From contig NZ_JAUNTJ010000006.1 of the NCBI RefSeq assembly GCF_030538755.1, forward strand, positions 82,951 to 146,950: 64,000 nt of DNA, given 5' to 3'. The notes beneath the pieces are model-generated. The model was not told the DNA's origin, did no database searches, and saw nothing but the letters and a program-made list of their open reading frames with translations. The translations under genes and the position numbers were made by a program. Of this stretch, positions 56,497 through 64,000 are shown piece after piece. Source of the DNA: Paracoccus sp. (in: a-proteobacteria) (GTDB lineage: Bacteria > Pseudomonadota > Alphaproteobacteria > Rhodobacterales > Rhodobacteraceae). How positions within the stretch are numbered: position 1 is the stretch's first letter; every line of letters starts with the position of its first letter.

Positions 56497-56572
56497 GGGG
56501 CCGTAGCTCAGTTGGTAGAGCGCGTCGTTCGCAATGACGAGGCCAGGGGTTCGATTCCCCTCGGCTCCACCA
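56497..56572 (+). tRNA. tRNA-Ala (anticodon CGC)
   Basis: Complete 76-nt cloverleaf with encoded CCA. Acceptor GGGGCCG pairs with CGGCTCC and contains the G3:U70 pair that marks alanine tRNAs. D arm GCTCAGTTGGTAGAGC; anticodon loop TTCGCAA giving anticodon CGC (codon GCG); T loop GGTTCGATTCC. Its last 17 bases are the attachment core of the adjacent integrative element; the gene is intact. Confidence 0.96.
56556..56572 (+). other. Attachment site attL (tRNA-Ala 3' end)
   Basis: TCCCCTCGGCTCCACCA, 17 bp, identical to 63707-63723. It spans the T-arm/acceptor 3' strand and CCA of the tRNA, the classic target for tyrosine integrases. Confidence 0.9.
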
Positions 56573-56644
56573 ATCATTCCCATGAGAAATTTTTTCTAGA
56601 AAAATCAGTGGGATGGCGGCGTTCTAGGCGGATTTCACGATCTT

Positions 56645-56679
56645 GAAAGACCAACTGGAAAGACCAATCGAAAGACCAA
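56645..56679 (+). repeat. Left arm-type integrase sites (three GAAAGACCAA repeats)
   Basis: GAAAGACCAA begins at 56645, 56658 and 56670, all in the same orientation, 12-13 bp apart. The same decamer occurs twice at the other end (63620, 63633). Positions 70-125 bp inside the att core fit arm-binding sites for the N-terminal domain of the integrase. Confidence 0.75.
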
Positions 56680-56694
56680 GTTGAGTCGGACGGG

Positions 56695-57129
56695 TCAGCT
56701 TGCGACTTCTTGCGCCCGCTTTCGGTCTTCCGTCCATGAGCCCGAGGCTTCGACGCCAGCCGCCTTTAGGTCCCTAACGTATTTCCGCATCCGGGTCAGG
56801 GTAAGAGAGCTTACTCCGATGATGCTGGGTCCGTCCTGCATAGAGAAGGCCCACTTGGTCCCCTCAATATGCGAGTTCCAGACTTCCCGCCATGCAGCGT
56901 CCAGCCGGTCGGCGTCGGATTGGACTACAGGGGCCCTTGCGGCAACCGTGCGGGAAGCTTCAGCTAGCGCAGCGTCCCTTAGGAGGCCCGTAAGCATAGA
57001 CGCTACGTCCGCGTAGGTGCTGCCTGAGGACGCCTTAGCAATGGCTTCCTTGATCGTGCTGGCGAGTTCTTCCCGCGCCATCTTCGGGGTTGTGATCTTC
57101 AGTTGAATTTCCGCAGTGGGGGTCATCAT
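56695..57129 (-). CDS. Island protein of unknown function, paralogue of the 58476-58811 protein (C-terminal domain)
   Basis: A 144-residue cytoplasmic protein, no family recognised. The C-terminal part (WAFSMQDGPSIIGVSSLTLT, then RMRKYVRDLKAAGVEASGSW) matches the C-terminal part of another island protein (WLFSLPEISEATSVDTPTIA, then MRARYMDLREAGREPVGDWW) in spacing and key residues: W-x-F-S, T, M-R, Y, D-L, A-G-x-E, G-x-W, D-x-K/R-R. The shared domain looks helical and may be a DNA-binding or multimerisation module. ATG at 57129 with AAGGA upstream; 57126 is also possible. Confidence 0.65.
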   Translation of the reverse strand: MMTPTAEIQLKITTPKMAREELASTIKEAIAKASSGSTYADVASMLTGLLRDAALAEASRTVAARAPVVQSDADRLDAAWREVWNSHIEGTKWAFSMQDGPSIIGVSSLTLTRMRKYVRDLKAAGVEASGSWTEDRKRAQEVAS

Positions 57130-57423
57130 GGGTGCTGTTCCTTGTTGATTGGTTGGTGTGGACGTTCCCGCTCATGTCAGCCGCCCCTAAGGGGATCGTA
57201 CCGTCACCTCAGGTGCCTCTTGCGTCCACCATCGGGGGACAAGAACGGCATGAGAAGAAGACCCCCCGCTTGAAGCGACGATGAGGCCGGGACGATCTGA
57301 TTGGAGCGGCTGACAAGAGCGGGAGGGCTCATGCAGCGATAGAGGATGAATTTTGCATAGGTGGAAGGGCGAGAGAATTTCCCCCGCCCGTCCCGTTGTC
57401 AGTGTGGACCTTCTGTCCCTTGG
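57130..57423. other. 294-bp gap with an 18-bp near-perfect inverted repeat pair
   Basis: No gene is supported. Arms at 57167-57184 and 57306-57323 match as inverted repeats at 17 of 18 positions (CCCGCTC, A or T, TGTCAGCCGC). The enclosed DNA holds further small hairpins (CCCCTAAGGGG, CACCTCAGGTG). It could be a structured RNA closed by a long terminal stem or a MITE-like insertion; no target duplication is visible at its edges. Confidence 0.5.
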
Positions 57424-58392
57424 TCAGTCGAAGTAGACGACCCCAAGGCGAACAGCCGCCCCGAAGCCAATCTCTCCGTAGACCGGATGCTTGATGGTCC
57501 ATTCGCGGCGTTGCTCGTCATAGCGCACGGCCTTGCGCTCCTGCTCCCGCATCCCCTCAATCAGATGCCCAAACCCCTCGGGGTCCTTTGAGGGCATCTG
57601 TTCAAGGCGGTTGAGGGAGAGGTGCCCAAGTTCTAGCAACTGCTGCGTGTCCCCTGCCACGACTGCTTGCCGCGCTCTGCGGAGTTCGTGGTCGGTAAGC
57701 GTAGCCTCCAAGCCCCCTACGGAGGTCTTGATTGCTGCCAGTTTGTCGTTCGCCTGAGCGACATAGCCCGCCACCACGCGCTGAACGGCCTCCTCGGAGA
57801 CCCCCTCAGGCAACGTGTCGAGGTCGGGCAGTTCGCCGCTTTCCACTGTGGAGTTCATCAGTCCGTCCACTACAGCCCCCCCGACAATCCGGTCGGCTTG
57901 TTGCAGGGCTTGGCTGGCGGCTTCCACAGCGGACTTGCGGGCAAGGTAGTCAGGGGCGGCGTTGGCCTCCTGTTTTCCTTGTCCGTCTGCTTTACCTTCC
58001 GGGCCCTCGGCTTTGGAGGTCGAGGCATCTTTCCCGGAAGGCTGATTAAAACCCGTGGAGGTTCCTTTGCGGTCCCACGGGGTAGGTTGTCCGGGTTCCC
58101 ACCCTTGCGGCAGGACCCCACCGGCAATGGCTGCCCCAATGGGGGTGATACCCATTCCTGGGATTGCCACGTGACCGGCAGGCGTAGGAGTGCTGACTTG
58201 GACTTGACCCCGGTGCAGGGGCTTTGAGGTCATCTGTCCGTCATGGTATGACACTTCCGTCTTGCGCATATCTTGGATGTGGATTTGCGGACCTTGGGGG
58301 CGGTTAGATCGGCTGTCTAACTGGATCGTCAGGGCCTTGAGGCGGTCCTGATCCACTGGCCCGTTCAGGTCAACGCTAGTGAAATTACTCAT
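57424..58392 (-). CDS. Island protein of unknown function, 322 residues
   Basis: The largest unknown gene of the element. Residues about 1-75 are polar; 76-95 are Gly/Ala/Ile-rich and mildly hydrophobic (MGITPIGAAIAGGVLPQG); 100-150 are low-complexity (GKDASTSKAEGPEGKADGQG); the C-terminal half is helical with coiled-coil character and ends in a compact segment (IKHPVYGEIGFGAAVRLGVV). This layout recalls phage scaffolding or internal virion proteins, but no family is recognised. ATG at 58392 has GGAG 10 bases upstream; the open frame before it overlaps the neighbouring gene and is rejected. Confidence 0.6.
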   Translation of the reverse strand: MSNFTSVDLNGPVDQDRLKALTIQLDSRSNRPQGPQIHIQDMRKTEVSYHDGQMTSKPLHRGQVQVSTPTPAGHVAIPGMGITPIGAAIAGGVLPQGWEPGQPTPWDRKGTSTGFNQPSGKDASTSKAEGPEGKADGQGKQEANAAPDYLARKSAVEAASQALQQADRIVGGAVVDGLMNSTVESGELPDLDTLPEGVSEEAVQRVVAGYVAQANDKLAAIKTSVGGLEATLTDHELRRARQAVVAGDTQQLLELGHLSLNRLEQMPSKDPEGFGHLIEGMREQERKAVRYDEQRREWTIKHPVYGEIGFGAAVRLGVVYFD

Positions 58393-58475
58393 GTCTGTGT
58401 GTCTCCGTTCTTTTCGGTGTGTTGGGGATATGCAGTAGGGGCGCTGGTGAGGCGCAGTTCGCGCTTGAGGCGCGG

Positions 58476-58811
58476 CTAGGGGCGCTGGGAGGGCGTCAGG
58501 ACGGGCCTCTTGACGTCCGTCCACCAATCCCCCACAGGTTCCCTTCCGGCTTCCCTAAGGTCCATGTAGCGGGCCCTCATGGCCGCAATGGTCGGGGTGT
58601 CTACGCTGGTTGCTTCAGAGATTTCGGGCAGGCTGAACAACCACGCTCGGGACGTGTTCAGTTCCCCATGGCCTAGATAGCGAACCATGCGCCAAGCCTT
58701 GTTCAGCTTGTCCTGAAGGTCTTGGATCATCCGCTGGTTTTGGGTCGGCGGACGCTTACGGGTGCGCTGTGATGCCTTGCGGCGGGGAGCGGCTGTAGGT
58801 TTCTCAGTCAT
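58476..58811 (-). CDS. Island protein of unknown function, basic N terminus, paralogue domain
   Basis: A 111-residue protein. The first 25 residues are strongly basic (PRRKASQRTRKRPPTQNQR), then a helix and the domain shared with the 56695-57129 protein (WLFSLPEISEATSV onward). The basic tail suggests nucleic acid binding. Start overlaps the upstream gene's stop (ATGA), so it is translationally coupled to the 95-residue protein. Confidence 0.65.
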   Translation of the reverse strand: MTEKPTAAPRRKASQRTRKRPPTQNQRMIQDLQDKLNKAWRMVRYLGHGELNTSRAWLFSLPEISEATSVDTPTIAAMRARYMDLREAGREPVGDWWTDVKRPVLTPSQRP

Positions 58812-59095
58812 AGACCTACCAGCAAAGCCTCAGCGCCAATCTGCGGAGGGAGGCCGTACACTCTCCGGTCATGCGGAGGGCGGTACTTGCGGAAGTGGAT
58901 AGACCTTCCTTCGGTTTCGGAGGCCGTGAGACCAGCCCAGCGGTGCAGAGGCATGGGATCGAAACACAAGGTCGCGCCTCGCCAAGCGTAGAGGAGCGCC
59001 GCTGGGTCTGCGCCGTTGCGGATCAGCTTGCGGGCCTGAGTACAGAGGCTCTCAGAGCCGGTCAGGTCTAAGTGGATCGCGGGGGCTGCGGTCAT
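58808..59095 (-). CDS. Island protein of unknown function, 95 residues
   Basis: Begins MTAAPAIHLDLTGSESLCTQ. Contains LLYAWRGATLCFDPMPLHRW and FRKYRPPHDRRVYGLPPQIG, no recognised family. ATG at 59095 overlaps the stop of the 62-residue gene (ATGA), and its own stop overlaps the next start, so three genes form a tightly coupled cassette. A longer frame to 59149 lies inside the upstream gene and is rejected. Confidence 0.6.
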   Translation of the reverse strand: MTAAPAIHLDLTGSESLCTQARKLIRNGADPAALLYAWRGATLCFDPMPLHRWAGLTASETEGRSIHFRKYRPPHDRRVYGLPPQIGAEALLVGL

Positions 59096-59283
59096 CAGTT
59101 CAGCCGGCGCTTTACGTGGATGCCGGGGAAACCTCCGGTAACTGCCCATACTGAACCGTCAGCTTCGTTGACGATCTCAGCGCCTTGTAGGCGGGCTTGT
59201 TCAATGGCGGCGTCCAATGCTGCGGCCTTCTGAGCGGCTGTCATGGGACGGGGGATGGTGTAGGCGTAGTCTTCATGGGACAT
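59095..59283 (-). CDS. Island small protein, 62 residues
   Basis: MSHEDYAYTIPRPMTAAQKA at the start, then an Ala-rich helix and a C-terminal beta-like part (SVWAVTGGFPGIHVKRRLN). First gene of the three-gene ATGA-linked cassette. No family recognised. Codon pattern and coupling support it as real. Confidence 0.55.
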   Translation of the reverse strand: MSHEDYAYTIPRPMTAAQKAAALDAAIEQARLQGAEIVNEADGSVWAVTGGFPGIHVKRRLN

Positions 59284-59429
59284 GGACAGGTCGGTCCTGT
59301 GTTTATGTTGAGGGGGAGGAGGGTTAGAACGATTGTGTTCTTTAGTAGGGGGAATTGGCCCCTCCTTCTGAAGTGAGGGGTATTCCCCTTCCCCGCCTCC
59401 CTCTGGGATCAGACCTGTCAGCCCTCAGG

Positions 59430-59729
59430 TTAGCTTGCGGAGGTTTCCCGAGGGATGCTTCGTCCGAGCAACTCGGAAAGCTTCAAAAGCGCCCATTGGG
59501 TATACCTGTCGGCCTCCTCATGGAAACCCTGCGCCCGAAGTTCTGCGGATTGGTAGGCGAGTTCTCCGGCTGTCTTCGCGGCCTGCATGGCGTTGAAGTC
59601 TTTCCGGCTGAGGCCCTTCGCGTCGGCGGCGTCCCGGAGGAGGTCCGCGCAGGCGACAAGGTGCTGGGTGATCGTGACCGGCGGCTCAGAGGCGGGAGCG
59701 ACGGAAAGGCTCTGCTGATGCTGATGCAT
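59430..59729 (-). CDS. Island protein of unknown function, 99 residues
   Basis: A small, mostly helical acidic protein (ITQHLVACADLLRDAADAKG; TAGELAYQSAELRAQGFHEE). AGAGGGA lies 5-10 bases before ATG 59729. The 146-bp gap after it holds purine-rich tracts and no gene. Not recognised. Confidence 0.6.
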   Translation of the reverse strand: MHQHQQSLSVAPASEPPVTITQHLVACADLLRDAADAKGLSRKDFNAMQAAKTAGELAYQSAELRAQGFHEEADRYTQWALLKLSELLGRSIPRETSAS

Positions 59730-59871
59730 GGGTGTCCCTCTAGGTTCCTTGGGTGTGACTGTTATGGAGGTTACGGGCGGGTGGCTCTGCGGCCTTCCTT
59801 GGGTCCCGTAAGACCCTCATACCCTGCCGGAATTTCTATGTAAACCTTTGATTTAGTTGCACTATAGGAGA

Positions 59872-60117
59872 CTATCGGACTAGGTCTAAGTTCTGCAAGA
59901 AAGGCTGCGGAGGCGCTGGGAGGCTAAACACGTGGCCTGCCCTGCCTTCCCCCGAGGTCCCGTAAAGGGAGCGTACGGGTTCTGTCGGGAGACCAAAGGG
60001 ATTGTTTCGGGGAGACCGAGGAGCGTAACAGGGACATGCAATAAGAAGCCATGCACTAAACGCGTAGCTTCGACCTAAATCAGAAAAAGACAGATAGGAG
60101 GCATACTCCTGCGTCAT
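59872..60117 (-). CDS. Questionable small ORF after the resolvase
   Basis: An 81-residue frame whose ATG overlaps the resolvase stop (ATGA). That coupling is the only support; the sequence (SPRNNPFGLPTEPVRSLYG, PAPPQPFLQNLD) is proline-rich with no recognisable fold, and the region also carries several short repeats. It may be non-coding. Confidence 0.25.
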   Translation of the reverse strand: MTQEYASYLSFSDLGRSYAFSAWLLIACPCYAPRSPRNNPFGLPTEPVRSLYGTSGEGRAGHVFSLPAPPQPFLQNLDLVR

Positions 60118-60755
60118 ACCTCAGACCATCTTGCAAGTGCCGCCTCTGCCCCTGCCGGGTCTGCCTTGATCCTCAGCACGGTCTGCCTAGACAGGCCTGC
60201 CGCCCTAGCAATCTCAGTCGTCCCGCTAGTCCCCCCAGCGATCATGTTAAGAACCACGTCAAGCGCCTTCCGGTCATACGCGGGTTTCCTGCCGCGAAAC
60301 TTGGAGGCGTCCTTCTTCGCTTCCTCAATCCCTGCCCGCTGCGCCTCCTTTGTTGCCTCTGCCTGCGCCTGAGCCGTTGCAGCCATGAACGCAATGAGCG
60401 CATCCCGGACGGCCTGTTGAATGGGGTCTTTCGTGGCCCCGTCAAAGGTCATGCCGTTGATGACGGTCCTGATGACCACTCCTCGGCGCATGAGGTCACG
60501 TATCGTGTCCGTCACGTCCGCATAATTCCTGCCCAGCCGGTCCACCCAGCGCACTACCAGCGTGTCCCCTGAGCGGAGCATGTCAAAGAGCCTACGGCCC
60601 TCAGGGCGTTCCCGTAGCGTGGTCGAGACCCCGGAAACCCCTTGATCGGAGATCACCTCGTCAATCTTGAAGCCTGCCGCCTCGGCTTGGGTCTTCTGAT
60701 GTGAAAGGGTCTGATCTGCGGTGGAGACACGGGCATAGAGGATCGTTCTGGACAT
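60114..60755 (-). CDS. Serine recombinase (resolvase/invertase family)
   Basis: A 213-residue site-specific recombinase. Catalytic Ser in ILYARVSTADQTLSHQ near residue 10, the conserved RWVDRLGRNYADV segment with catalytic arginines near 70, and a C-terminal helix-turn-helix (TSGTTEIARAAGLSRQTVLR). Normal length for Tn3-type resolvases or DNA invertases. ATG at 60755 is at the family start; an in-frame ATG at 60809 adds an unsupported leader. It may resolve multimers or invert a segment in the element. Confidence 0.92.
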   Translation of the reverse strand: MSRTILYARVSTADQTLSHQKTQAEAAGFKIDEVISDQGVSGVSTTLRERPEGRRLFDMLRSGDTLVVRWVDRLGRNYADVTDTIRDLMRRGVVIRTVINGMTFDGATKDPIQQAVRDALIAFMAATAQAQAEATKEAQRAGIEEAKKDASKFRGRKPAYDRKALDVVLNMIAGGTSGTTEIARAAGLSRQTVLRIKADPAGAEAALARWSEV

Positions 60756-60798
60756 GTGATGTACAAGCTCCTGAAGGTGTCTGTAAGGGTACTGTCCG

Positions 60799-61170
60799 AT
60801 GACTATCATGTCCGAAAATAAGGATCAACCCTTACGGACAGCCGTTGAGCGCAGGCAGGGAGTGTCCGCTAAAGTATACCCTAACGGTCTATTGAGCCTT
60901 GGAGGGTGTGAGACTGCTTGGCTTGGCTTGCTTAAGGGGCGAGAGGTCCGCACAAGGGAGAGGAGGTCGAGGTTGCACCTCCGAGGGACGCCCATTCCTC
61001 TGCCGGTCTCCCCGGGTGCCCGCAGGGCATGTAACAAGACCCCATGGGGGGTATGCGCGGTAGCAATTCCCGTCGAGGCAAGACTTCAGATTTTTTCGTC
61101 AAATACTTGGGGGATGTTTGGGCTGGGTCTAGGTCCTGCCTGCTACTCCGGGGAGGAGGCTAGACCATAA
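60799..61170 (+). CDS. Possible island protein divergent from the resolvase
   Basis: A 123-residue frame (or 120 from ATG 60808, MSENKDQPLRTAVERRQGVS). AAGGGT is 10 bases before the first ATG. The first 60 residues look plausibly coding; the remainder is low in helix-forming sequence and ends in Gly-rich stretches. The only rightward candidate in the element; not recognised. Confidence 0.3.
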   Translation: MTIMSENKDQPLRTAVERRQGVSAKVYPNGLLSLGGCETAWLGLLKGREVRTRERRSRLHLRGTPIPLPVSPGARRACNKTPWGVCAVAIPVEARLQIFSSNTWGMFGLGLGPACYSGEEARP

Positions 61171-61552
61171 AGGAGCCTGTTAGATGGAAGGGGGAAGACG
61201 TACTCCGCCTCACTGTCCCTTGAGGGCATGTCTACCAACCCGAAGACATTGAACAGGTTTAACCTAAAGGAAGATGTTTAGGGAGCCTCAGGGCTGTAGT
61301 GAGGGGTTATTCTCCTCCCTCCTACTTCCTCCCCCTTCCCTCACGTCCATGTCCAGTCCATTGACCAGAACATGCAGAGCTAACCTTAGGTGTAACCTTA
61401 AGGGATATGTCTAGGGGGGCCTCCCGTTCTGGAGTAGGGGGTAATTCAATCTGGCCTTCTTTCAGATGGCTAGGAGCAGAGGCAGAGGCAGAGGCAGAGG
61501 GGATTCCCCCACCCGCAACGGAGTAGGCCAAGCCCCCGCTCTAAGATGCCCA

Positions 61553-61757
61553 AAGAGTGTACGGCCTCCCCCTCAGGAAGCCCTTAGCGTCCTCTCAGGT
61601 CCCAGCACAGCCGGAATGACGTAGCGGGCCTGTACGGGGCCCCTGAGGGCACTAGGGAATATCCTGAGGAGCGGGGGCAGTCCGAGGCGCTGGGAGGCGT
61701 CCCCGCTGCCTGAGTTGCCCGGAGAGTGTACGGCCTCCCCCTCAGGACGCCCGTTAG
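61553..61757 (+). repeat. Direct repeat pair in the element
   Basis: Two copies of a 36-bp sequence with core GAGTGTACGGCCTCCCCCTC (61555 and 61724), 169 bp apart, about three mismatches overall. The intervening DNA includes GGGCCTGTACGGGGCCCC-like symmetric sequence. Confidence 0.6.
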
Positions 61758-61855
61758 CTGCGCCCGAGGGTTCAGGGTGCCGGGAAGACCCAACGCCCCG
61801 TACTGGCTCGTCAGATCAGGGCTTGCCGGGCAACCGGGACCGACAAAGCCCATGA

Positions 61856-62164
61856 TCAGCGTTTTCTGAGGTCAATGTCCGGCGCGGCGTATAGCAGTTG
61901 CTTCATAGCTTCGCGGTCTTCGGAAACAATCCGCCTCATTAGGTCAACTGCACGATCGACTGCTTCTTCTTGTATCGCGTCAAGGGAAGCTTTCCGGTCG
62001 CTAGGGATAAACAAATTTATCGTTGCCGCAGGCCCGAGGTTTGACCCGTCAATACTGGAAACCCCTAGGGCCACGTTGACAGAAAAACCGGAATCCTCGC
62101 CTCCCTCATAAGTGATCCCGTAAACATCGACCTGAGTAACACGGCGCTCGTCAAAATACCCCAT
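61856..62164 (-). CDS. Island protein of unknown function, 102 residues
   Basis: A small protein directly after the integrase. The N-terminal part is beta-rich (VTQVDVYGITYEGGEDSGFS; GPAATINLFIPSDRKASLDA) and the C-terminal part is one long helix (EEAVDRAVDLMRRIVSEDRE). AAGGA precedes ATG 62164; a longer frame to 62287 lies inside the integrase gene. No family recognised; its place after int is where excisionase-type or accessory genes are often found, but it lacks an obvious winged helix. Confidence 0.6.
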   Translation of the reverse strand: MGYFDERRVTQVDVYGITYEGGEDSGFSVNVALGVSSIDGSNLGPAATINLFIPSDRKASLDAIQEEAVDRAVDLMRRIVSEDREAMKQLLYAAPDIDLRKR

Positions 62165-62201
62165 CCATCCATTCCTTTGATTCAGCGGATATTCGTGCAG
62201 C

Positions 62202-63569
62202 TTACGGAAGGTTTTTCGCTGAAGGAAGCCTGACGCTCTCCACAAGGTCCCGCCTCTGCCTTTCGGAAGCCTGCCCGGTGTACCCAAGCGTCACCTTGTC
62301 CCGCCCCTCTGGCACATGCCCCAAGACCTCCTGAAGCGTTTCCAAGGGGTGCCCGTTATGGCGGGCCTGTTGGGCGAACCAACGGCGGGCGGAGTGGAAA
62401 TTGACAAGGGACCTGCGCCGTCCCTCTGCCTTGTCGTCAACGCCTGCGGCTTCCCGATAGCGTTTGAAGCGTTTGCCGAAGGTGTCGCTAGGTGTTTCGA
62501 GGGAGGCCAGATCCGTGAAGACCGGATCGGTAGACTTCTTATCCTTGGTCAGCTTGGCAAAGATCGGCACAAGGGCGGAGTGCATTGGAACGTCCCGGAC
62601 TGCTGCATCCGTCTTCCCGGCTGTCACCTTGATCCACTTCCCGTCTATAACGTCCGCGACGGTAAGGCTCACGACCTCAGCTTGACGGAGACCGGAGAGG
62701 AGGGAGATTGTCAGCACGTCCAAAAGGTCAGGCACAAGCTTTGCGTTGAAGCTTTCCCGCGCTGGTCCATACAGGAGGGCTTGGACCTCCTCGGCGGTGA
62801 AGGGCCGCTCCTCGGCGTTCCCCTGCGTTCCCCTGCCCGCCCCGTTAGACCTCCTACGGGTGCTAATTTGGTCTGTCCAAGGGTTTCCGTTGGGGTCCCC
62901 TGCGGGCGGCGTGACATGCCCTCGGCGGATCAGGAAGGCCCAATAATCGGTCAGAGCGGTAAGGTGCTTCCGGGCCGTAGCGGGGTCCCGGTCTTGCAGT
63001 TTGGCTGCCACGTACTTTCCGGCAGCGCGTCGGGTCACGTCAGGGAGTGTGAGGCGTTCCTGAGCGGCCCACTCTGCAAACTGACGAATGAGGCCCCGCC
63101 TTTCGTTGATGGTCTTGGGGCGGAGGTCGCTGCGAAAGGCCGCATAATCGTCCGTAAAGGCGTCTACAGACTCATGCCCATGCAAGGCGTTGAGGTACGC
63201 TTCCCGGTCTTTTTCCGGGAGGCTGTCAGCTTGATCGTCCGCGATCATGGCAAGCTGAACGGCGCGGGAAATATCAGGCAGAGGCCCCGGCCTGCCTTCC
63301 CGCTCGGCCTTGGCAATCTCCTCCCGCATGGTTCTGCCTAGATCGGAGGAGCTTTGCGCAACGCCGTGGACCGACTTACCGGAGGCCAGCAAGGCGTATT
63401 CTTCCGTCGTCTGCGCCTCCAAGGCGTCACGGGTCTTCTGAGCGGCCCTTACGTCCCCCGTGCCAGTGCTTTCGGTGATCGCAGTCTTGCCCCCGTAGTG
63501 CCGCCTCAGGGGCTTGGGAATGGGCCTCTTGAACCACCACGTTTGTCCCTTCAGGGTGAGGAGGCGCAT
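62202..63569 (-). CDS. Tyrosine recombinase (phage-type integrase)
   Basis: A 455-residue integrase. N-terminal arm-binding part (MRLLTLKGQTWWFKRPIPKP with GKTAITESTGTGD), core-binding helices to about residue 230, and catalytic domain: Arg in LLSGLRQAEVVSLT, His-Arg in FHSARRWFAQQ, His in EVLGHVPEGRD, Tyr in TLGYTGQ. ATG at 63569 is chosen for its strong AAGGGGAGG ribosome site; ATG 63614 and 63656 are weaker. It lies 138 bp from attR and drives integration into tRNA-Ala. Confidence 0.93.
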   Translation of the reverse strand: MRLLTLKGQTWWFKRPIPKPLRRHYGGKTAITESTGTGDVRAAQKTRDALEAQTTEEYALLASGKSVHGVAQSSSDLGRTMREEIAKAEREGRPGPLPDISRAVQLAMIADDQADSLPEKDREAYLNALHGHESVDAFTDDYAAFRSDLRPKTINERRGLIRQFAEWAAQERLTLPDVTRRAAGKYVAAKLQDRDPATARKHLTALTDYWAFLIRRGHVTPPAGDPNGNPWTDQISTRRRSNGAGRGTQGNAEERPFTAEEVQALLYGPARESFNAKLVPDLLDVLTISLLSGLRQAEVVSLTVADVIDGKWIKVTAGKTDAAVRDVPMHSALVPIFAKLTKDKKSTDPVFTDLASLETPSDTFGKRFKRYREAAGVDDKAEGRRRSLVNFHSARRWFAQQARHNGHPLETLQEVLGHVPEGRDKVTLGYTGQASERQRRDLVESVRLPSAKNLP

Positions 63570-63619
63570 AGGCCCTCCCCTTGCCCGTCTTGCTGTTCTT
63601 CGTGCTGTTGCCATTACCT

Positions 63620-63642
63620 GAAAGACCAACCCGAAAGACCAA
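63620..63642 (+). repeat. Right arm-type integrase sites (two GAAAGACCAA repeats)
   Basis: GAAAGACCAA at 63620-63629 and 63633-63642, 13 bp apart, same orientation as the three copies at the left end. They lie between the integrase start and attR, and may also overlap the integrase promoter, allowing autoregulation. Confidence 0.75.
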
Positions 63643-63706
63643 TTCAGGCTGAACAATACCTAGCGATTACAGCAATTTCAAGGCATTATGAGAGAGTATC
63701 GGAGCC

Positions 63707-63723
63707 TCCCCTCGGCTCCACCA
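63707..63723 (+). other. Attachment site attR
   Basis: TCCCCTCGGCTCCACCA, exact copy of the tRNA-Ala(CGC) 3' end. Bases on either side differ from attL, so the common core is 17 bp. Confidence 0.9.
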
Positions 63724-63945: not shown

Positions 63946-64000
63946 GGCTCTGTTGCACAAATCGGCTGGTGTCCGGGGTTCTCCTTTCCCCGGACAGACT
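63946..64000. mobile_element. Possible insertion sequence terminus (IS5-like), cut by the window edge
   Basis: GGCTCTGTTGCACAAATCGG at 63946-63965 resembles the terminal inverted repeat of IS5-family (IS427/IS1248-like) elements, which are common in Paracoccus relatives. The transposase and other end would lie to the right of the window. Assignment from memory of the family ends. Confidence 0.45.

Follow-up and report, generated by a model that had tools for sequence, protein, structure and literature searches.

What kind of mobile DNA occupies the tRNA-Ala(CGC) gene in this stretch of a Paracoccus genome, and what cargo does it carry? The window, that is, the whole stretch of 64,000 nucleotides that was analysed, holds near its right end an element of about 7.15 kb that begins in the 3′ end of this tRNA gene (all positions below are those of the window). 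A preliminary description had proposed an element with a tyrosine integrase, a serine resolvase and seven unknown proteins, and had offered a phage satellite, a defence island or a minimal integrative element as its nature. We consider it likely that the element is a minimal integrative island, and that it belongs to a family which is marked by a resolvase and often carries defence genes.

Boundaries of the element and its integration

The tRNA-Ala(CGC) gene is intact on the attL side (56497–56572, plus strand; ARAGORN; Rfam RF00005, E 5e-13), and its 3′ end, TCCCCTCGGCTCCACCA, forms the attL core at 56556–56572. An exact copy of these 17 bp on the same strand at 63707–63723 forms the attR core, 7,151 bp away, which bears out the duplication described earlier. 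Nowhere in the window is a longer stretch of the tRNA 3′ region repeated, and a chance match of 17 bases in 64 kb is not expected. GC content is 59.5% within the element compared with 66.0% on the left flank. Between the att copies nine proteins were called, all on the minus strand, comprising an integrase, a serine recombinase and seven unannotated proteins, orfA to orfG. The integrase (470 aa, 62202–63614) matches Pfam Phage_integrase (5e-14) and DUF6538 (6e-10), and the serine recombinase (213 aa, 60114–60755) is of the resolvase type, with Pfam matches to Resolvase (3e-27) and HTH_7 (4e-9). Hence both recombinases of the preliminary description are upheld by Pfam, and so is its count of seven unknown proteins, none of which had a match approaching a family threshold in Pfam, PHROGs, PADLOC or NCBIfam.

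Both ends of the element also carry short direct repeats. Three tandem repeats of the GAAAGACCAA type are present at 56644–56680 (plus strand), ∼72–108 bp inside attL, and two tandem GAAAGACCAA repeats are present at 63619–63643 (plus strand), ∼65–90 bp inside attR and just upstream of the integrase start; by chance ∼0.06 shared 10-mers would be expected. These repeats are positioned like integrase arm sites and look like putative sites of this kind. A direct repeat of at least 10 bases is common to both ends in 12 of 16 bounded islands (chance ∼0.0–0.06 per island), and none of this length links the ends of L107, L108, L109 and L063. The end repeat takes other forms in the four bounded islands whose integrases are related, CCATTCTGACCAA in L031 and TTCTGCCTAG in L029, L113 and L116. 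We propose that the DUF6538 integrase would act between the tRNA-Ala(CGC) gene and an attP that bears the 3′ end of the tRNA, that this integration would leave the intact tRNA on one side and the 17-bp copy on the other, and that the decamer repeats on both flanks may serve as its arm sites.

A DNA search with the complete element, which scored two first-look candidates per genome, matched 19 of 125 Paracoccus genomes, the element's own included; the others matched only in pieces of at most ∼760 bp, mainly the recombinase gene. Integrases 40–43% identical to that of the element are found in six Paracoccus loci. The island is bounded by a tRNA-Ala 3′ end in four of them, with the anticodon CGC in L029 and L116 and GGC in L031 and L113, and no tRNA was found in the stretch examined for L114 and L115. 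The closest sibling, L029 of P. benzoatiresistens, is 8.2 kb long and sits in the same tRNA-Ala(CGC), and its integrase, recombinase and orfD are 41, 71 and 50% identical to those of the element. The two flanks of L029 abut in another Paracoccus (L081; 89% identity over 8.9 kb and 85% over 0.8 kb), and the two matches overlap by the 18-bp core. L081 is a clean empty site for this sibling island, and the earlier concern that relatives might have no empty sites does not hold for L029. The att cores, the arm-type repeats, the open integrase frame, the lack of a full-length match in the other Paracoccus genomes searched and the empty site of the sibling all speak for the minimal integrative element among the three earlier proposals.

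Among the related loci, L113, L114 and L116 have a conserved core of the integrase, a recombinase (∼35% identical to that of the element), three small proteins and the F7 protein; in L116 the F7 gene is interrupted by ∼1.6 kb. A ‘ParB-like’ label, given by eye to proteins beside related integrases (L115/L016 and L031), found no ParB match in Pfam and is not relied on.

A resolvase-type recombinase and its res-type site in tRNA-associated islands

Among 125 Paracoccus genomes, 13, the element's own included, hold close relatives of the serine recombinase (14 copies), as do 13 of the 294 other genomes sampled from the family. For 12 of the Paracoccus copies, a gap-free alignment extends upstream through three sites, beyond which the DNA no longer aligns. 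On the minus strand of the element, site I is an imperfect dyad of 28 bp at 60863–60890, site II is a 32-bp dyad with the arms TGTCCG ... CGGACA at 60809–60840, and site III is a region with approximate boundaries at 60778–60808; the centres of sites I and II are 52 bp apart. A weight matrix was trained on the 12 Paracoccus loci and each locus was compared with 100 shuffles. For loci of other genera the matrix score beat all the shuffles in 12 of 13 cases, always at 126–139 bp from the start codon; three of these 12 score near zero bits, still ∼35 above the shuffles. Hence a res-type site lies upstream of the recombinase in 26 of 27 Rhodobacteraceae loci, this one and the training set included. 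Moreover, the arms of site II covary across loci, with 133 of 156 positions complementary compared with 113 expected, and none of 5000 permutations was as high.

A three-part site upstream of a resolvase gene is the geometry of Tn3-type res sites. The recombinase would then be a resolvase that acts on the three-part site just upstream of its own gene and reduces multimers of a circular form to monomers. The element resembles Tn3-family and plasmid systems in having a serine resolvase with such a site upstream of the gene, and it differs from the Tn3 family in that its module has no Tn3 transposase beside it and is housed in integrative tRNA islands. Multimer resolution is supported because the same module also serves free circular DNA. 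Recombinases 63–72% identical are found in eight plasmid records, and the Methylobacterium nodulans plasmids pMNOD06 (12.6 kb) and pMNOD07 (9.8 kb) carry the same res site (93.6 and 89.4 bits) with a recombinase 72% identical to that of the element. These two plasmids differ from the element in their annotated primase-type or primase/polymerase-type genes and in having no annotated integrase, and none of 28 tRNA 3′ ends was found in them. The recombinase match in pMNOD07 is unannotated and falls in two pieces, and this gene may be broken. On an Agrobacterium plasmid the recombinase copy adjoins an annotated cytosine methyltransferase and an AAA ATPase.

In the sample of 27 loci the module is associated with tRNA genes. 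The recombinase has a tRNA gene no more than 6.2 kb away in 22 of them (12 of 14 in Paracoccus and 10 of 13 in the others), compared with about 5 of 27 expected by even tRNA spacing (P 5e-12, a value that takes the tRNA gene density of P. yeei from PMC6209633 and ignores clustering of tRNA genes). In 15 of 27 loci the recombinase lies between exact copies of a tRNA 3′ end, and tRNA-end repeats are present in 16 of 23 loci chosen by integrase, recombinase or orfD, whose islands measure 3.7–10.3 kb. The resolvase module keeps company with different integrases in different islands, and so is not bound to any one of them. With a recombinase of the family and the three-part site upstream, the element fits this family as defined here. 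We found no description of the family in the open-licence PubMed Central literature, including the parts available of PMC6209633, PMC6536676, PMC8628076 and PMC11389934. The element is like the tRNA islands catalogued by Islander and TIGER (PMC4383910, PMC12424338) in its tyrosine integrase, tRNA 3′-end duplication, restored tRNA and small cargo; those catalogues are general in scope, and their accessible portions make no mention of a shared resolvase–res module.

Defence cargo and rival explanations

At least one non-recombinase protein was scanned against a defence library in 18 of the 27 loci (in L105 only the integrase was scanned), and recognisable defence genes of the DRT, PARIS, NACHT and restriction-modification types were present in 10 of the 18. 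L104 carries DRT UG13a (6e-197) and L111 Drt2 (1e-123); L109 carries a NACHT ATPase (Pfam 1e-8, with no clear PADLOC match); L106 carries the PARIS genes AriA (1e-37) and AriB (2e-11), and L167 carries AriA (4e-42) with an AriB-like neighbour that has no match. The remaining five carry a type I methyltransferase with no restriction subunit seen (L162, 4e-156), type IIG genes (L164, 1e-304, and L174), a type II methyltransferase with HerA (L172) or a type II methyltransferase (L171). Of these islands L106, L171 and L174 have no demonstrated tRNA-end repeat. The scanned proteins of the element, L029, L103, L107, L108, L112, L165 and L173 included no defence gene; L112 holds a HipA-like kinase (3e-11). 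The defence genes of the sibling islands are thus a strong pattern, not a measured enrichment. Genes of RNase H type adjoin the recombinase in L101, L104, L110 and L174, confirmed by Pfam for L101 and assigned by eye or clustering for the rest.

For the element, orfB to orfF would be the cargo, and a host-protective role is the leading guess because siblings with the same resolvase–res module often carry anti-phage systems. The small proteins orfA and orfC are probably DNA-binding regulators. Any movement between cells would need a helper, because no transfer or packaging gene is recognisable. The defence island of the preliminary description is supported only through association with the siblings, and the element itself has no recognisable defence gene in PADLOC, its sole weak match being that of the recombinase to Csa3 (E 0.019). 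This absence is one of several points that weigh against our preferred explanation. The proteins scanned for defence functions were hand-picked, with no control set; at five of the 27 loci no tRNA lies within 6.2 kb of the recombinase (for three of these the contig stretch is short), and one locus, L169, has no res site. The arms of site I covary more weakly than those of site II (94 of 156 positions complementary compared with 82 expected, 21 of 5000 permutations as high, in an arm frame that was not optimised). The empty site of the element itself was not found, and its 277-bp right flank has no useful match in 20 loci. No replication gene is recognised, and the element's own genes do not explain a need for multimer resolution. 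Finally, excision, resolution and transfer are predictions here.

Three other explanations compete with an integrative island of this kind. As a phage satellite, the element would be excised on infection by a helper and packaged by it, with orfB or a sibling F7 protein acting on capsid assembly of the helper. The small size of the element and the phage-type regulators (Bro-N and Rha) in sibling islands are consistent with this, and one of five F7 proteins weakly matches a PHROG head scaffolding protein (E 0.044); in a predicted structure F7 would have a disordered N-terminal half and a helical C-terminal half. The review PMC11389934 also states that many satellites carry anti-phage systems. 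Like P4-like satellites (PMC8628076), the element is small, has its integrase at one end and has defence genes in related elements; unlike them, it has no recognised psu, sid, delta, epsilon, alpha or AlpA, as searches of its nine proteins against Pfam and PHROGs gave no match to any of these at E up to 1. It also resembles PICMI and other minimalist satellites, as far as the accessible part of PMC11389934 describes them, in few genes, possible helper reliance and defence cargo in relatives, and is unlike them in that neither a helper nor a packaging motif was found. No capsid or packaging gene was recognised in Pfam and PHROGs. Only 15 13-mers are common to at least five of 25 island and plasmid stretches, one of them within the element, and none could be assigned to a packaging site. 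The recombinase has no match in the phage collection at E 1e-30, orfB has no relative there, and the strict res-site pattern is not found in viral_contigs; no open-licence PubMed Central paper pairs Paracoccus with a phage satellite. We keep the satellite of the preliminary description as a possible but less likely alternative.

Less probable still is that a larger prophage or plasmid has decayed and that the element is merely what is left of it in the tRNA gene. A stretch of ∼1 kb without genes, with degenerate repeats that resemble part of orfD, would fit such decay, as would the lack of any recognised replication or transfer gene (Pfam and NCBIfam recognised no relaxase or mating-pair gene among the nine proteins, and no search was aimed at a bare oriT). 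However, both recombinase genes seem complete, as do the att sites, the arm repeats and the res site. Bounded siblings are similar in size, so that smallness is the rule, and no bigger element carrying this set of genes came to light; nor did the genes turn out to be ordinary remnants of one known prophage, an outcome that the preliminary description had envisaged. The recombinase might also ride in unrelated islands and drive inversion or insertion at other res sites rather than resolve multimers, which we regard as the most improbable of the three. That one module is found alongside various integrases, and also on plasmids from a different order, would suit this idea. However, a search of the 27 loci (with a one-orientation anchor and a 35-bit threshold) showed no second res copy, which leaves no pair for inversion, and an upstream site in three parts is the arrangement of Tn3-type resolution sites.

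Starting from the minimal integrative island as the preferred explanation, a bolder view is tentative. The islands may be an undescribed class of helper-dependent, plasmid-like integrative islands in Alphaproteobacteria, unified by an exchangeable resolvase–res module and not by the integrase, which would circulate single defence cassettes through tRNA genes; orfE-orfD-orfC-orfB-orfA would then be an undescribed defence or anti-competitor system. If the resolvase-marked island family is right, the recombinase family with its 114-bp site would be a single, easily searched marker of small islands that are otherwise hard to see, having neither integrase nor cargo in common, and a handle for new defence genes in Rhodobacteraceae and beyond. 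It would also raise the question of why an integrative island of 4–10 kb keeps multimer resolution unless its circular form replicates. The same site on free plasmids of 10–13 kb points toward a replicating circular form.

Remaining genes and surroundings

The stop and start codons overlap at orfE-orfD and at orfD-orfC, and because of these overlaps the translational coupling proposed in the preliminary description is plausible for these two junctions. orfE (62 aa, 59095–59283) overlaps the start of orfD (95 aa, 58808–59095, or 113 aa if the upstream ATG at 59149 is used), a small protein that is found again in other islands, in some of them beside primase genes. Homologues of orfD lie directly upstream of Toprim/DUF3987 replication genes in the AlpA-type islands L097–L100 (G072, G090 and G032), a placement that suggests a link of orfD to replication. 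orfC (111 aa, 58476–58811) is similar to orfA (144 aa, 56695–57129; E 7.5e-7) and also matches a protein beside a related integrase (E 2e-8). orfB (322 aa, 57424–58392) is an orphan that occupies the position of the F7 protein in sibling islands, homology to F7 not being established. It has no relatives in the viral_contigs, genome_contigs, phages or plasmids collections, and in the 125 Paracoccus genomes it was covered only by the DNA search with the whole element. Its sole other match, in 295 family-level genomes, is to a 13,007-aa open frame (32% over 102 residues, E 1e-4) and was taken as compositional. orfF (99 aa, 59430–59729) has no relative in 124 other Paracoccus genomes or the plasmid collection, and orfG (102 aa), with no match in the four protein libraries, lies at 61856–62164.

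The gene-free stretch at 60895–61855 contains two related repeats of 55–58 bp (61534–61588 and 61701–61758), part of which reappears inverted inside orfD (24 bp, 96%). This stretch may be an origin, a regulatory region or a copy that has decayed. It matched no Rfam family, a 326-nt part of it folds no better than shuffled sequences (z −1.3), and terminator-like and promoter-like sites were not above shuffles.

To the right of the element, the window ends where the contig ends. The last 53 bases (63948–64000) are a likely insertion sequence end, as 51 bp of them are 84% identical to the terminal part of such a sequence in L069; this accounts for the break in the contig, and only ∼220 bp of right flank remain outside it. 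This insertion sequence end, the arm-type repeats, the res-type site, the similarity of orfA and orfC and the gene-free stretch go beyond the preliminary description.

The tRNA locus holds other DNA elsewhere. In G098, the closest relative judged by the flank, the neighbouring gene is 91% identical and different DNA follows the tRNA; there (L062, 1–6600) the tRNA is followed by a large serine recombinase-like gene and a VirD4-type gene, both assigned by eye only. In G011 (L063, 4644–12208) an unrelated island of 7.6 kb occupies the same tRNA-Ala(CGC), and its genes cluster with the integrase, AlpA, Toprim and DUF3987 proteins of L099.

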